A stretch of DNA of 64,000 nt. Origin: Eubacterium sp. AF16-48. Its GTDB lineage: Bacteria; Bacillota; Clostridia; Lachnospirales; Lachnospiraceae. Numbering within the stretch: position 1 is the stretch's first letter; each line of letters starts with the position of its first letter. The notes below the pieces were generated by a model. It ran no database searches. It saw nothing but the letters and a program-made list of their open reading frames with translations, and had not been told where the DNA came from. Below are positions 12,785 through 40,792 of this stretch, piece after piece. The stretch spans positions 62,001 to 126,000 of the forward strand of contig NZ_QUHB01000005.1 of the NCBI RefSeq assembly GCF_003479405.1, in the 5' to 3' direction. The position numbers and the translations under genes are program-made.

Positions 12785-13327
12785 TTTATCCTCCTTCAAA
12801 TTAGTTGCCATATAGACAGAATTTGAATTTGGAAGTGATATAGTCTACATGGCTATGCTTAACGCTAAGCATGTAGGTACACGCCAGTCTTCTAGACTCC
12901 TATATCGCCCCGTGTACAAAGAGGTGTTCTCACCTCCGGGAGTTACAGACGAGCCACAAAATGTGTTTCACGACGCCCTTCTGAATTATCAGAAGCACTA
13001 TCTCCTCTTTTAGCCTTTTGAGGATAAGGACGAACTTCTCGCCCTCTGTGGTTAATTATCCTTACGCAACATGCCTATTCCTTTTACCAGATTTCCATCC
13101 AGCTTCTCGCCCTTCATCTTTCAATCCATCAGACTACTAATATGATAGCTGTGACTTTCATCCTCCAGGTACATGCCCCGTAATTTTACTACCTACAGAT
13201 ACTCTGCAGTGCAAACTACTTTGCAAATCTGTAACTGATTATTCAATTGTTATGTCCAATCTCTCTTGGACAATTGATATTCTACAATGCACTTTAATTT
13301 TACGGAAGTGACACCACTGGTGTATTT
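12785..13327. ncRNA. Structured noncoding region of the mobile element (candidate RNA, parC or oriT)
   Basis: 543 bases without a credible gene. Nested and crossing complementary segments are visible: 12836-12843 with 12900-12907, crossing 12877-12883 with 12911-12917 (pseudoknot topology); hairpins 12855-12872 (ATGCTTA/TAAGCAT), 12886-12898 (AGTCT/AGACT), 12921-12936 (GAGGTG/CACCTC), 12979-12995 (CTTCTGA/TCAGAAG), 13210-13225 (TGCAAA/TTTGCA inside CAGAT/ATCTG) and 13253-13272 (TGTCCAA/TTGGACA). An 11-base word CTTCTCGCCCT occurs twice. It could be a stand-alone RNA, a long 5' leader of the parM operon, the centromere of the ParM/ParR pair, or oriT. The strand is not proven. Confidence 0.5.
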
Positions 13328-34190: not shown

Positions 34191-35495
34191 TTATAATTGC
34201 TGTCCCGCTAAATAATTAGCAAACTGTTGAGCTGTTCTTCCTGATATTCCACCATGGCTAAGCTCCCATTTGTTTGCCTCTGCCTTTATTTCATCATCAG
34301 ACAATTTAACACCCAGTCTTCTACACAATTCAACGGCAATTTCAAAATACTCTTTTTGCGTTGGTTTAGAATAGTTAATTGTAACACCAAATCTATGTAC
34401 CAATGAAAGTTTCTCTTCCATTGTATCTGACTTATGCATACCGTTTTCAACCTGAACATCACTTCTGTCATTCCATGTTTCCTTTATCAAATGACGTCTG
34501 TTGGATGTAGCATAAATTAATATGTTTTCCGGCTTTGTTTCCACGCCGCCTTCAATAACTGCCTTTAAAAACTTATACTCTATTTCAAAATCTTCAAATG
34601 ACAAATCATCCATATATATAATAAATTTATAATTTCTGTTTTTAATAGCTGCTATTACGTTAGAAAGATCCTTAAACTGATGCTTGTATATTTCTATCAT
34701 TCTAAGTCCCTGCTCGTAATATTCATTGACTATCGCCTTAATACTTGTAGATTTTCCTGTACCGCTATCGCCAAAAAGAAGACAGTTATTTGCCTTTCTT
34801 CCCTGAACAAAGGCTTCTGTATTGTCCACCAATTTCTTCTTCTGTATCTCATATCCAACAAGATCATCTAAAACTACCTTGTCCATATTATTAATTGCGT
34901 GAAATTCTAAAGGACCGTCTCCATCCTTAATTCTGAAGGCTTTATTAAGTCCAAACATTCCTACGCCATATTGCTTATAAAATTCAGTAACATAATCAAA
35001 GAATTCATTTTCATCCTTTGCATTTTCCAGCTTTAAGCTCAAACTCTGTACCTTTTCGCTTACATTTTTGTTGTACATTAATTCAGTCTTACCAATTGCC
35101 TTATAATTCTGGAGCCTTTCAAAACAATCTATTCCTAATTCTTCCTCCATTGGTTTAAAATCATAATCAAACAATTTCATAAACTGTTTAAAGTCATTTT
35201 TGGCAAAATAGTTTACACTACCATCATTTGCCCCAACTTTCTCGCATGTAAGACTAAATGGATTTTCATTTGTAATCAGAAGATATGTAAGATAATTATG
35301 CCATAAATTTCTATCAAAACCGTAATCTGTTGATACTTCCAATATTCTCTTTACCTGATGATAAATTCTCGTGATAATCTCGTCTTTTTTATAATTTTCA
35401 CCTTTAAATTCTCTTATTATACTGCTTAATTCCATTAATATAGAATCTTTAGGCATATCACCATATATTAATAACTTTGATACTATGTTATGCAT
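34191..35495 (-). CDS. DUF815-family ATP-binding protein
   Basis: 434 residues from the ATG at 35493-35495, which follows AGGAG with 7 bases between; a longer frame is not supported. AAA+-like domain with Walker [19 protein letters not shown] and Walker [14 protein letters not shown], then SNRRHLIKE. The N-terminal 200 residues ([28 protein letters not shown]) are typical of this family. Function is unknown. It is the first gene of the four-gene set with HPr-kinase-like, PqqD and peptidase genes; whether they act together is not shown. Confidence 0.88.
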
Positions 35496-35562
35496 GTTCT
35501 TTCTCCTGACCATTAATTATTTCATATTTTATGTACATTAAATATGAGTTTTTGTTACAAAA

Positions 35563-35598
35563 GCAACCACTAATGGTTGTTACACCAATAGTGGTTGC
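35563..35598 (-). terminator. Terminator after the pfl operon
   Basis: Arms GCAACCACTA (35563-35572) and TAGTGGTTGC (35589-35598) with TTTTG following in the minus transcript. It lies 52 bases past the stop of the glycyl-radical gene. Confidence 0.7.
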
Positions 35599-35650: not shown

Positions 35651-35893
35651 TTACAGATTAGCGTGGAATGTTCTGTGAATAACATCATCCTGCTGTTCTT
35701 TTGTTAACTTGATGAAGTTTACAGCATATCCTGATACACGAATTGTAAGCTGTGGATATTTTTCAGGGTGCTTCTGAGCGTCAAGTAATGTATCTCTTAC
35801 TAATACGTTAACGTTAAGATGATATCCGCCTTCCTCTGCATATCCATCTATTAATGAAACTAAATTGTCAATCTGTTTTGCACTTGCTGCCAT
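35651..35893 (-). CDS. grcA: Detached glycyl-radical domain of pyruvate formate-lyase (GrcA-like)
   Basis: 80 residues. The sequence is the C-terminal domain of formate acetyltransferase: [35 protein letters not shown] and [14 protein letters not shown]. The Gly that carries the radical is in RVSGYAV. Its ATG follows AGGAGGTAATAAAG and lies within the last codons of pflA, so it is strongly and coordinately translated. The core gene upstream (36701-38776) ends without such a domain, so this small protein is probably an obligate subunit and not a repair spare like E. coli YfiD. Confidence 0.93.
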
Positions 35894-36671
35894 CTTTATT
35901 ACCTCCTGTTTTTTCTTTTAATAACTCGATTCTGGATTCCTTAAATCCCTGCAACACAATCTTTTTTGCTGCTATTGCCATCTCTTTCGTGGCCGGCTGA
36001 ATATCCTTTAACGGATAATCTATACCAAGCTCAGCATATTTAGGCTTTGCCATATCATGATACGGAAGAATGTCCAGCGCTTTTACCATCTCTAACTTGC
36101 CAATAAAAAGTCCTAATTTGTAAAGATACTCTTTATTTAATGTTATGTGAGGCACAACCACGTGTCTTATCCACATCTTTATACCTTTTTTGTTAAGATA
36201 CCTGGCAAATGCCAAAATATTATCATTTGGCTGCTTGCATAACTTCATGTGTTCTATTGGATCAATATGTTTAATATCCAGCATAACTAAATCAGTTACT
36301 TCAAGTAATTTATCAGTTTTCTTCAAATACTCCGGATCATCAGGTCTAAAAGTTACACCTGATGTATCCAGACAAGTATTAATACCTCTATTGTGAGCTG
36401 CTGTGAACAGTTCTGTAAGGAAATCTATTTGAACCATTGGTTCTCCACCAGTGGCAGTGATTCCTCCGGTCTTATAGAACGGTGCTTTCTTATCATATTC
36501 CTCAAGGAGTTCCTGAACAGTCATTTCCGTTCCTCCGGCCATAGTCCAGGTATCCGGGTTATGACAATATGCACATCTCATCGGACATCCCTTAAAAAAT
36601 ATTACGAACCTTACACCAGGACCATCTACAGTACCACAGCTTTCAGTTGAATGAATAATTCCAGTCGACAT
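35868..36671 (-). CDS. pflA: Pyruvate formate-lyase activating enzyme
   Basis: 267 residues. A radical SAM enzyme that generates the glycyl radical using S-adenosylmethionine. The cluster motif CxxxCxxC is in [34 protein letters not shown] binds SAM and [12 protein letters not shown] is typical of activases. It lies between the catalytic core and the glycyl-radical domain genes, whose start it overlaps by 26 bases. A single activase must act on the small subunit. Confidence 0.95.
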
Positions 36672-36700
36672 CCTAATCTTTCCTTCTCTCTAATTTCTAA

Positions 36701-38776
36701 TTATGACTGCTGTAATTTAATAAGCTCGTCAATGTCAATTCCAAGTTCGTCAGCATCAAGGTCACCTGTAAATACTTCACAGTCTTTTCCAAGTGCGTCA
36801 GGAATAACTGTAAATGTATCTGAGATACCATCTCTTGCATTTTCAAATGGAATCTTAGCTACTGATGCAAGTGATGAAACTGCACCGTGAGTATCTCTAC
36901 CATGAAGTGGGTTAGCACCTGGTGCGAAAGGCTCACCTGTCTTTCTTCCGTCAGGTGTGTTACCTGTGTTCTTACCATATGTTACGTTTGATGTAATAGT
37001 AAGAATTGACTGTGTAGGAATACTTTCTCTGTATGTGAAGTGCTGTCTTAAGTAACCCATAAACTTGTCAACGATCATTACTGCAAGGCTGTCAACTCTG
37101 TCATCATCGTTACCATACTTAGGGAACTCTCCCTCTGTCTCATAATCAACAACAATTCCGTCTTCGTCTCTGATAGCTTTAACCTTAGCATACTTAATAG
37201 CTGAAAGTGAGTCAGCTACTACTGAAAGTCCTGCAACACCTGTTGCGAACCATCTCTTAACGTGTGCATCATGTAATGCCATCTGGATTCTTTCGTATGA
37301 ATATTTATCATGCATATAATGAATGATGTTAAGAGCATTTACATATACTCCTGCTAACCATTTCATCATATCTTCATATCTTTCCATAACCTCATCATAA
37401 TCAAGATATTCTGATGTGATTGGTCTGTACTTAGGTCCTACCTGTACCTTTGTCTTTTCATCAACACCACCGTTAATAGCGTAAAGAAGACATTTAGCAA
37501 GGTTTGCTCTAGCTCCGAAGAACTGCATTTCTTTACCGATTCTCATTGAAGATACACAACAAGCGATTCCGTAGTCATCACCATTGTATACTCTCATAAG
37601 GTCATCGTTCTCATACTGCATTGATGAGTATTCGATTGAAAGCTTAGCACAGTATCTCTTAAATGCTTCAGGTAATCTTGTTGACCAAAGAACTGTAAGG
37701 TTTGGCTCTGGAGCTGCACCAAGGTTCTCTAATGTATGAAGATATCTGAATGTTGTCTTTGTAACCATGTGACGTCCGTCAATACCAACACCACCAAGTG
37801 ATTCTGTTACCCAAACAGGGTCACCAGCGAAAATCTGGTTGTATTCAGGTGTTCTTGCGAACTTAACGCATCTTAACTTCATAATGAAGTGATCAACGAA
37901 TTCCTGAATCTGCTCTTCTGTAAATGTTCCGTTTGCTAAGTCTCTCTGAGCATAAATATCAATAAATGTAGATGTACGTCCAAGTGACATTGCAGCACCG
38001 TTCTGTTCCTTAACAGCTGCTAAGTATCCTAAGTACATCCACTGAATAGCTTCCTGTACGTTCTTAGCCGGTCTTGAAATATCAAATCCGTAAATCTTTC
38101 CTAATTCCTTTAATTCCTTAAGAGCTCTAATCTGTTCTGAATATTCTTCTCTATCACGGATAACTTCAGGTCTCATTTCTGTAGGTGTAGCTGCCTTCTG
38201 AGCTTCCTTATCTATGATAAGTGTATCAACACCGTATAATGCAACTCTTCTGTAGTCACCAATGATACGTCCACGTCCGTAAGCATCAGGAAGACCTGTT
38301 ACGATGTGGTTTGTTCTACATGTTCTGATTTCAGGTGTGTAAGCGTCAAATACACCTGCGTTATGTGTCTTTCTGTAGTTTGTGTAGAAATCTACTACTT
38401 CAGGATCAACTTCATATCCGTTGTCGCTACAAGCCTTCATAGCCATACGGATACCACCGTTTACCTGTAAACCTCTCTTGAAAGGCTTATCTGTCTGGAA
38501 ACCAACGATTGTTTCCTTATCCTTATTTAAGTAGCCTGCTCCATGTGATGTAATTGTCTGAACAACCTTTGTGTCCATATCAAGAACACCGCCTGCTTCT
38601 CTTTCCTTCTTCTGAAGGTCAAGCACCTGGTTCCATAAATCTGTTGTGTTCTGTGTAGGTCCTGCTAAGAAACTCTCATCACCATCATATGGTGTGTAGT
38701 TTTTCTGGATGAAATCTCTAACGTTGACTTCTTTTGCCCAAGCGCCATTGTTAAAACCTGTCCATTCTTCTCTCAT
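36701..38776 (-). CDS. pflB: Pyruvate formate-lyase core subunit without its radical domain
   Basis: 691 residues versus about 750-760 in the usual single-chain enzyme. It contains the catalytic Cys-Cys pair in [14 protein letters not shown] and substrate residues in [14 protein letters not shown] and [10 protein letters not shown]. The C-terminus stops at [15 protein letters not shown], exactly before where the glycyl-radical domain would begin (no RVSGYxV motif). That domain is the separate gene at 35651-35893. AGGAGGAAAGACAGAG precedes the ATG. The enzyme splits pyruvate into acetyl-CoA and formate. Confidence 0.94.
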
Positions 38777-38833: not shown

Positions 38834-39370
38834 CTAACTAAACTTTAGTAAATCTTCGACTGTCTTTTTCTTAGGAACCGCCGGATCCTCATCTGGATAC
38901 CCTATGGCAATCAAAGCCATAAGAAGCTGTCCTTCAGGCACATCTAAGATTTCTGCTGCCTTGTCAATGTCATACATTCCCATGATAACTGTTCCTAAAC
39001 CTTTTTCATGCGCTGCCAGACAAAATGTCTGGGTTGCCACTCCATTGTCAAAGGCCTGCCAATTGTCTTCCCGGGAAGTGGTATAACTACCATCCCTTTC
39101 AAATCCTGAACGCTTGTCCACAATAATTGTGGCTACCAACATAGGTGCACCATCAATAATTTCCTGATTGTGTGCCCCACAGCATTCCTTTGAGATTCTA
39201 TCTTTAATCTCCGGATCTGTTATGGCAATATAGCGGGTAGTCTGAGTGTTCTTCCAAGACGGAGCATATGAAGCAGTAAGTACAATGTCTTTTATGATTT
39301 CCGGGGAAACCTTATCGCTCTTAAACTTTCTGATGCTTCTTCTTGTTTTTATGCATGTAATCGCATCCAT
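38834..39370 (-). CDS. Nitroreductase family protein
   Basis: 178 residues. An FMN-dependent oxidoreductase: MDAITCIKTRRSIRKFKSD at the N-terminus, SYAPSWKNTQTTRYIAI, and the usual GLGTVIMGMYDIDKAAEIL and LIAIGYPDEDPAV. The physiological substrate is unknown. TGGAGGTGCTATT precedes the ATG. It is divergent from the Crp/Fnr gene across an unusual intergenic region. Confidence 0.92.
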   Translation of the reverse strand: MDAITCIKTRRSIRKFKSDKVSPEIIKDIVLTASYAPSWKNTQTTRYIAITDPEIKDRISKECCGAHNQEIIDGAPMLVATIIVDKRSGFERDGSYTTSREDNWQAFDNGVATQTFCLAAHEKGLGTVIMGMYDIDKAAEILDVPEGQLLMALIAIGYPDEDPAVPKKKTVEDLLKFS

Positions 39371-39634: not shown

Positions 39635-39664
39635 TGTTGCAAATGCAACAAATAGAGCTATAAT
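39635..39664 (+). promoter_or_regulatory. Palindromic operator and promoter of the Crp/Fnr gene
   Basis: TGTTGCAAATGCAACA (39635-39650) has perfect 6-base arms and overlaps a -35-like TTGCAA (39637-39642); TATAAT (39659-39664) is 16 bases away. A Crp/Fnr-type protein, possibly the one encoded downstream, could bind here. Transcription would start about 470 bases before the ATG. Confidence 0.6.
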
Positions 39665-39729
39665 GATATACAAGGAACACAAAATACAGTTTTTTCTGCT
39701 TGCAGAAAAAAACTAGTGTTTTGGTGTTC

Positions 39730-39793
39730 CGCCCCCACATGAGGAAGTAGCAATTTTTCTGAAAGAAAAATTCGCGGATTCCGAATGTGGGGA
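39730..39793 (+). repeat. Compound hairpin in the leader
   Basis: Outer arms CCCCACAT and ATGTGGGG enclose an inner hairpin AATTTTTCT/AGAAAAATT with a 3-base loop. It immediately precedes the first repeat unit. A MITE-like relic or an RNA element is possible. Confidence 0.65.
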
Positions 39794-40132
39794 GAATTGC
39801 GAAAGTTGCGAAGCAACGCAGCAATTCGTATATCATTATATATACTACAGGGAAACAGATTTGCAGAATTGCGAAAGTTGCGAAGCAACGCAGCAATTCG
39901 TATATCATTATATACTACAGGGAAACAGATTTGCAGAATTGCGAAAGTTGCGAAGCAACGCAGCAATTCGTATATCATTATATACTACAGGGAAACAGAT
40001 TTGCAGAATTGCGAAAGTTGCGAAGCAACGCAGCAATTCGTATATCATTATTACACTACAGGGAAACAAATTTGCAGAATTGCGAAAATTGCGAAGCAAT
40101 GAAGCAATTCGTATATCATTATATACATCGGG
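39794..40132 (+). repeat. Five tandem ~70-bp hairpin units
   Basis: Units begin at 39794, 39866, 39936, 40006 and 40077. Each reads GAATTGC, gaaa, GTTGC, gaa, GCAAC, gca, GCAATTC, a nested stem, then a 35-40-base linker (CGTATATCATTATATACTAC, then AGGGAAACAGATTTGCA). The last unit has several changes (AAATTGC, CAATGAAG) that keep partial pairing. The array ends 9 bases before the start codon, with GGGAGGG as ribosome site. Conservation of the arms in all units suggests selection on structure. Confidence 0.9.
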
Positions 40133-40141
40133 AGGGTTTAT

Positions 40142-40792
40142 ATGAACACTACAAAGCATGATTTATTTTATGGAATAAAAGAATCGGAACAGTCAGAAAT
40201 GCTGAAATGTTTTAATTCTTACACAAGAAGCTATTCCGCCGGTAAGGTTATCTGCTTTTTTGATGAGCCGGATGCCGGTATTGGAATTGTGGAGGAAGGA
40301 GAAGCCTGCATAATACATAGTCTTTCCAACGGTTCCCAAACCATTTTAGAGCATTTAAAACCCGGGGACTTGTTTGGTCAGATGTTTTATTATCATGCCA
40401 ACCGCGAAAATATAACTCTTGAAGCATCAAAAAAATGTACCATTAGATACATCGATTATCAGCATATTGTCAAAAGATGCATTAAATCATGTCAGCATCA
40501 CAGCCAGCTTGTAAGCAATATATTAATGATGGTTTCAGATAAAACAAAAGATATTTGTGAACATCTTGAAGCCGTAAGCCAGCGTTCAATAAGGGATAAA
40601 CTAATGACCTATTTTGAAACCCTCTCTTCAAAAAATAATAGTAACACCTTTACCATACCATTTACCATGAGTTCTCTGGCTGACTATCTTTCCATTGATA
40701 GAAGTGCCATGAGCAGGGAACTTGGCAAAATGAAAGACGAAGGTCTTATTTATATTGAGAAAAGAGAAGTAACAATAAACAGATTTAAATAA
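40142..40792 (+). CDS. Crp/Fnr family transcriptional regulator
   Basis: 216 residues. A cyclic-nucleotide-type effector domain (residues 20-130: GIVEEGEACIIHSLSNGSQT, HLKPGDLFGQMFYYH) is followed by a C-terminal winged helix (FTMSSLADYLSIDRSAMSRE). No Cys cluster of the FNR type is evident, so an iron-sulfur sensor is unlikely. GGGAGGGTTTAT precedes the ATG. Its leader is the repeat array. Targets are unknown; the divergent nitroreductase and the nearby pfl operon are candidates. Confidence 0.93.
   Translation: MNTTKHDLFYGIKESEQSEMLKCFNSYTRSYSAGKVICFFDEPDAGIGIVEEGEACIIHSLSNGSQTILEHLKPGDLFGQMFYYHANRENITLEASKKCTIRYIDYQHIVKRCIKSCQHHSQLVSNILMMVSDKTKDICEHLEAVSQRSIRDKLMTYFETLSSKNNSNTFTIPFTMSSLADYLSIDRSAMSRELGKMKDEGLIYIEKREVTINRFK

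Follow-up and report, generated by a model that had tools for sequence, protein, structure and literature searches.

Pyruvate formate-lyase (PFL) is a main route of anaerobic sugar fermentation, and oxygen destroys its radical. In E. coli, the available text of one study describes GrcA as a 127-aa protein with a disordered N-terminus (PMC8683613), and the accessible part of a second reports that GrcA G102 takes a hydrogen atom from PflB C419, an inter-chain transfer (PMC12338860). The same portion of that source gives an intermediate formate level for an E. coli strain carrying PflB G734A together with GrcA (PMC12338860). Here, we analyzed a window of 64,000 nucleotides (the whole stretch of DNA examined) from Eubacterium sp. 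AF16-48. Comparative sequence data suggest that its PFL is naturally split, with a core and a separate radical subunit forming the active enzyme; we put the probability of this reading at about 0.87.

The minus-strand gene order is nitroreductase, PFL core, pflA and small radical subunit, and the coordinates, lengths (691, 267 and 80 aa), strand and gene order given in an initial annotation of this DNA proved correct on re-reading. The features of the region are as follows.

34191..35513, minus strand: DUF815 AAA-type ATPase, downstream (Pfam, reading of loci)
35564..35579, minus strand: terminator-like hairpin 3' of the radical subunit gene (consensus match only)
35651..35893, minus strand: putative radical subunit, 80 aa, GrcA3 family (NF038360, 161 bits, cut-off 158)
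35729..35731, minus strand: codon for Gly55, the RVSGYA glycine equivalent to E. coli G734 (small-subunit alignment)
35868..36671, minus strand: pflA, PFL-activating radical SAM enzyme, 267 aa (TIGR02493, 283.3 bits, cut-off 231.75)
36701..38776, minus strand: PFL core subunit, 691 aa, without the glycyl-radical loop (Pfam, TIGR01255)
37556..37561, minus strand: codons for the C406-C407 cysteine pair, equivalent to E. coli C418/C419 (columns invariant in the core alignment)
38834..39370, minus strand: nitroreductase-family protein, 57 nt upstream of the core (Pfam, reading of loci)
40142..40792, plus strand: Crp/Fnr-type regulator, divergent (Pfam, reading of loci)

The core retains the adjacent catalytic cysteines C406-C407 and closes with an acidic 27-aa tail beyond the residues LGK. 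The glycyl-radical loop RVSGYA is not in the core chain and is carried by the separate small gene. A cognate activase is present, as PflA scores above the TIGR02493 cut-off. The small gene starts within the last codons of pflA (a 26-nt overlap), and the strong ribosome site of its own that had been ascribed to it was borne out by a Shine-Dalgarno energy of -11.7 kcal/mol; a stronger site, at -12.9, was computed for the nitroreductase gene upstream, and weaker ones for the core (-10.2) and pflA (-6.2). Four terminator-like sites occur in the scanned region against a shuffle mean of 2.6, and because this count is hardly above that of shuffles, the hairpin argues only weakly for a terminator. The DUF815 ATPase gene is probably outside the pfl operon. 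In a neighbor-gene search that covered loci L001-L023, some of them short, the nitroreductase gene was found upstream of the core in 12/12 loci (L001-L011 and L019), with a divergent Crp/Fnr-type gene in eight of these 12. Between the nitroreductase and Crp/Fnr-type genes, the window also holds a Clostridiales-1 RNA (RF01699, 119.4 bits) at 39664-39835 on the plus strand, which overlaps the start of a 70-bp tandem array (39793-40126, 4.7 copies); an Rfam scan of six relatives did not find the RNA of this pfl region. A Clostridiales-3 RNA (RF02942, 270.3 bits) lies at 12872-13139 on the minus strand.

The initial annotation had the core ending before the radical domain, with the missing C-terminal part encoded by a separate gene. 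The loop is indeed absent from the core, but the end point was misplaced: the chain is cut inside the Pfam Gly_radical domain (PF01228), with positions 1-49 in the core and positions 50-106, together with the radical glycine, in the product of 35651-35893, so the second part of the claim stands. Pfam also assigns the PFL-like domain to the core, which scores 1097.1 bits against TIGR01255, above the cut-off of 994.2. The 744 positions of TIGR01255 are tiled by the core (2-666) and the small protein (665-744) with almost no overlap, and the PFL match of the small protein begins at residue 6-9. Aligning both pieces with single-chain PflB, as had been proposed, located the split point at about residue 682/683 of E. 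coli PflB (PDB numbering; core to 682, small protein from 683). Structure models were weak (mean pLDDT 63 and 65), and a fold search with the core model against a PDB library running to 2026-04-08, in which 38la and 38lb are absent, returned 2pfl as the best match and confirms the fold family only.

A contig scan with the core, from which the best 80 of 138 relatives were kept, revealed that all 79 complete cores lack the radical domain (the 80th, L019, is cut by a contig end), although the scan patterns derive from the window protein, including one from its tail, and may favor split relatives. The small gene lies downstream of the core in 77 of these 80 loci, and the three without a complete small gene (L004, L019 and L073) end at contig edges, with the start of the small gene visible in L073. 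The same held for a larger set of 155 split-core entries, which includes the window, the cut L019, at least two duplicated loci (L040/L157 and L050/L114) and loci added from whole genomes: the small gene is 3' of the core in 152, and the remaining three end at contig edges. Hosts of split cores include, by record title, Lachnospiraceae, other Clostridia, Collinsella, Enorma, an Atopobiaceae MAG, Gastranaerophilales and a MAG labeled Alphaproteobacteria. P0142, P0152 and P0239 (742-744 aa) are high-identity matches to the window core; the C-terminus of P0142 changes to a different, fused-type one, making it a recombinant or an assembly chimera.

The placement of pflA between the two halves, as first described, holds in the window but not for the system at large. 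The order core-pflA-small gene occurs in 12 of 155 entries (L001-L003, L005-L011, L226 and the window) and characterizes the window's subclade rather than the split system. In the other complete entries the small gene follows the core directly or behind a third gene; pflA comes after the small gene in 98 entries and was not found within the search reach in 42. Core and small gene share a frame in L014, L018 and L252-L257, separated by one or more stops and a short spacer, so occasional read-through to a fused chain may be possible in several relatives. In L253, L255 and L257, a single stop codon parts the same-frame core and radical subunit.

Whether the small protein accompanies a full-length enzyme bears directly on its role. 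Each of 24 genomes reached via split loci, including that of the closest relative found (G001), has one core above the TIGR01255 cut-off, and a single full-length PFL was present in none of the 24. In G009, G011 and G021, core and small gene share a frame and were summed by the profile search, but the DNA has stops between them; in the six further genomes with a joined frame, reading the DNA likewise showed one or more stops dividing core and radical domain into two open frames (6/6). Thus, the initial statement that no full-length partner is seen held across these 24 genomes of relatives. It does not extend to the whole family, because split and fused PFLs occur together in at least three of 200 Lachnospiraceae-family genomes (G109, G143 and G155).

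Across three genome samples, the small gene was found in 38/38 split and 0/26 fused-only genomes, in listings tallied by hand whose rows are related, so that the count is no test of independence. These comprise a family sample of G001 (60 genomes; 24 fused, one of them the re-fused G035, and 19 split, leaving out G066, whose split core is frameshifted, and G046, G058 and G069, which have fragments), a class sample of G015 (59 genomes; 1 fused, 13 split) and an order sample of G021 (50 genomes; 1 fused, 6 split). G001, G015, G018 and G021 count both in this tally and among the 24 genomes above, and many of the genomes searched are MAGs. This co-occurrence indicates that the small protein behaves as an obligatory subunit, and the earlier suggestion that it looks obligatory is thus supported at the level of gene content. 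The mirror image appeared in a proteobacterial phylum sample, that of G020 (150 genomes), where, besides the piece of G020 itself, separate pieces of GrcA size (model positions 680-744 or 682-744, frames of 128-137 aa) were found in five genomes, all five of which also have a fused PFL. In a phylum sample of G001 (119 genomes), 35 pass the cut-off and G001 is the only split one, so the split is concentrated in certain lineages.

We next consider the origin of the split. In a quick LG+G4 tree of 119 cores over 662 core columns, all 43 split cores and one fused core (L087) form one clade (SH-aLRT 99), whose sister clade comprises 18 fused PFLs, all belonging to the same family sample, and two changes suffice to explain the split or fused label. 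An AU test on 65 rows rejected a grouping of the split cores without L087 (p-AU 0.00125; the group was named after the first tree). The radical domain of L087 has split-type small subunits as its nearest rows, with no starred branch holding it. Because L087 sits in the split clade and its radical domain is nearest to split-type subunits, the halves appear also to have been rejoined into one chain. The re-fused gene (L087:1474-3717, plus strand) has pflA directly downstream, and a search of its genome, G035, found no separate small gene. One split and one re-fusion is the simplest reading of these trees; an independent split in each phylum was unsupported, since the split cores form one clade. 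Collinsella and Gastranaerophilales sequences inside this clade imply probable transfer between phyla. The radical-domain tree is short (85 columns) and has many open forks. In it, 103 split subunits form one group (support 91), and E. coli GrcA groups with the C-termini of proteobacterial PFLs (98-99), a position that suggests GrcA is a separate invention and on which we rejected a GrcA ancestry for the small protein.

Several other explanations for the divided gene have to be weighed. One is decay to a pseudogene by frameshift or truncation, or else an error of sequencing, and the relatives in which core and small gene share a frame across stop codons and a short spacer are consistent with it. 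However, the break is conserved, the small gene has its own start codon and Shine-Dalgarno, the catalytic residues are conserved, and other genes lie between core and small gene in some lineages; moreover, the small gene follows the core in every split entry except the three at contig edges. A sequencing or assembly error, which the initial annotation had named as a possible origin of the missing domain, is excluded because the identical break is shared by genomes of several phyla. With all 79 complete cores split and the small gene in 77 of 80 loci, we rejected error and pseudogene alike and regard decay as having a negligible chance of being correct.

The small protein might instead serve in oxygen repair like E. 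coli GrcA/YfiD, with the core being accessory or damaged and an intact PFL located elsewhere. Its NCBIfam name, 'autonomous glycyl radical cofactor GrcA3', points in that direction, as do the three or more genomes that hold both PFL forms and the second, unlinked small genes of some genomes. Such copies were found in 3/20 split genomes of the family sample (G055, G065 and the frameshifted G066), and in G021-G024, the 4/4 Gastranaerophilales genomes among those reached via split loci, but in only 1/6 split genomes of the order sample of G021. The absence of a single full-length PFL from the 24 genomes, the absence of the small gene from the 26 fused-only genomes, scores below both the GrcA and GrcA2 cut-offs and the failure to group with E. 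coli GrcA all argue against it, so we consider this explanation improbable. A further proposal, compatible with a split enzyme, is that the split serves mainly for regulation: ribosome sites, together with second copies next to Crp/Fnr-type regulators, would determine how much radical subunit there is per core and so adjust PFL activity. The strong Shine-Dalgarno of the small gene and the divergent Crp/Fnr-type gene beside the window operon fit this idea, and the second copies adjoin a Crp/Fnr-type gene in G066 and Crp/Fnr-type and ferritin-like genes in G024. No such neighbor was recognized, by eye and from ORF starts only, at five other second-copy loci (L171, L172 and L174-L176), and we hold tuning of this kind to be doubtful, if conceivable. 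The unlinked copy with both Crp/Fnr-type and ferritin-like neighbors is L177:5040-5282 (plus strand), in the genome of L076, titled Gastranaerophilales.

We thus favor a naturally split enzyme, for which we propose the following mechanism. The core would give the barrel, the substrate sites and the thiyl cysteines C406/C407, and the 80-residue subunit would give one barrel strand and the loop that bears Gly55, the radical glycine. PflA would put the radical on the small subunit, either free or docked, and the radical would then move between two polypeptides, from the small subunit to the core cysteines. We infer that the pair is the active enzyme and that oxygen damage would be confined to the small subunit, a cheap and replaceable part. 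Oxygen cleaves PFL at the radical glycine, according to the available text of PMC8683613, and such a cut in the split enzyme would hit the 80-residue subunit. That cells replace this subunit once oxygen has damaged it is plausible, and would fit both the published behavior of GrcA and the extra unlinked small-gene copies. In the accessible part of PMC8683613, truncating E. coli PFL at residue 695 weakens its binding of YfiD and lowers its activation but leaves it catalytically sound, and the folded part of YfiD corresponds to PFL 693-759. The natural small subunit begins about 10 residues before that folded part and includes the preceding helix, which may supply a missing contact.

In 41 of the 155 split entries, a further short gene, which we call mini, lies between the core and the small gene. 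Measured between stops, its open frames have 61 to 145 codons, most of them 70-90; three examples are listed here, and 38 further split operons have one.

L012, 6083-6301, plus strand: mini gene
L013, 6173-6388, plus strand: mini gene
L178, 5241-5453, plus strand: mini gene

The first half of mini resembles that of the radical subunit. Searched against the 973 open frames of the window, a mini profile matched the radical subunit alone (E 3.8e-6) and found no mini gene, and the GrcA3 profile matched three minis weakly over their first ~30 residues (E 7e-5, 0.009 and 0.016). Mini carries no radical loop, and its tail is usually Cys-rich. A Cys motif that includes ACxxP is seen in all but L108 and L200, whose frames stop sooner. 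Against Pfam, one of three minis gave nothing better than E 0.1 and two had no match; against the PDB, nothing of note appeared (best E 0.56). A homolog search returned 2,555 proteins, and among its best 120 rows all named ones are hypothetical or uncharacterized.

In the family sample, mini and a Cys-bearing core tail alternate. Among 68 family-sample entries (67 loci from listed rows plus the window; 60 loci were chosen from listed split rows without regard to mini, but to look for it), the core tail has fewer than two cysteines in 38/38 entries with mini and at least two in 27/30 without, the exceptions being L209, L226 and the window. In the full set of 152 uncut entries, fewer than two cysteines were found in 41/41 with mini, and at least two in 80/111 without; among the remaining 31 are the window's subclade and the C. 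aerofaciens group. Genome searches located unlinked mini genes in G026, the genome of L209, and in 8/10 genomes of the window's subclade, with only a divergent relative in G001 and G007. At E < 1e-10, mini was present in 15/60 family genomes, 14 of them with a split core (including G046 and G066) and the other, G030, without a PFL match, and in 0/24 fused genomes of the same sample. Divergent mini relatives with an HHGRCDVGS motif were also seen at L250:1367-1597 and L251:3470-3721 (both plus strand), the former with a ferritin-like gene and an Fe-S-domain aldo/keto reductase nearby. We tentatively suggest a three-part system, possible but short of probable, in which mini, pictured as a helix and strand imitating the front half of the radical subunit, or elsewhere the Cys-bearing core tail, would act as a plug or redox switch in the empty core slot until a fresh radical subunit loads, giving an enzyme that would alternate between two states, one capped and oxygen-proof, the other loaded with the radical. 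The role of mini as a dummy subunit is a proposal.

The split clade accounts for 20/44 PFL-bearing genomes of the window's family sample (19 intact cores and the frameshifted G066) and also reaches Collinsella and Gastranaerophilales. With the vulnerable glycine on a separate 80-residue protein, rescue by swapping the small piece becomes testable. If the split reading is true, many 'autonomous glycyl radical cofactor' proteins would be obligatory subunits, PFL cores cloned alone from split-PFL bacteria should be inactive, and inter-chain glycyl-to-thiyl radical transfer would be the normal state for a central metabolic enzyme.

Compared with single-chain PflB (TIGR01255; PDB 2pfl and 1h16), the window enzyme is alike in family score, Cys pair, best fold match (2pfl) and cognate PflA, but its radical glycine is on a second polypeptide and its core ends in a different C-terminal tail where single-chain PflB has its last ~77 residues. 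The split-gene transketolase of Carboxydothermus is not known to use radical chemistry. It is likewise, in the available text, an enzyme reconstituted from two separately encoded chains (PMC7661550). Among the matches listed, no paper on a naturally split PFL was found in the open-licence literature. The best sequence matches of the core are PDB 38la and 38lb, 'Formate acetyltransferase', neither of which the small protein matches; since 38lb also continues beyond LGK with a Cys-containing tail, both look like split-type cores. Together with the GrcA3 entry in NCBIfam (NF038360), of which the small protein is a member, these sequences suggest that split PFL may already be familiar to parts of the field. 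The GrcA3 name implies a spare part, whereas the comparative data point to an obligatory subunit.

Another close likeness is to E. coli GrcA/YfiD and phage T4 Y06I (TIGR04365), which, in the accessible parts of the sources, are also small separate glycyl-radical proteins with a PFL body in trans (PMC8683613, PMC12338860). The small protein falls below the cut-offs for GrcA (TIGR04365; 96.5 versus 170 bits) and GrcA2 (108.3 versus 145 bits) and lacks a GrcA-like disordered N-terminal extension of ~60 residues. At 80 aa, the split subunit adds a helix before the strand (model from ~662-665), while GrcA starts from 680. Co-occurrence with full-length PFL, a GrcA trait, was seen in 0/24 split genomes, and GrcA repeats a domain that its partner PFL also has, whereas the partner core of the split subunit has no such domain. 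Together, these comparisons suggest that the window enzyme is a PFL working like PFL plus GrcA, and that what sets it apart is that, as far as genomes show, the two-chain state is its sole state.
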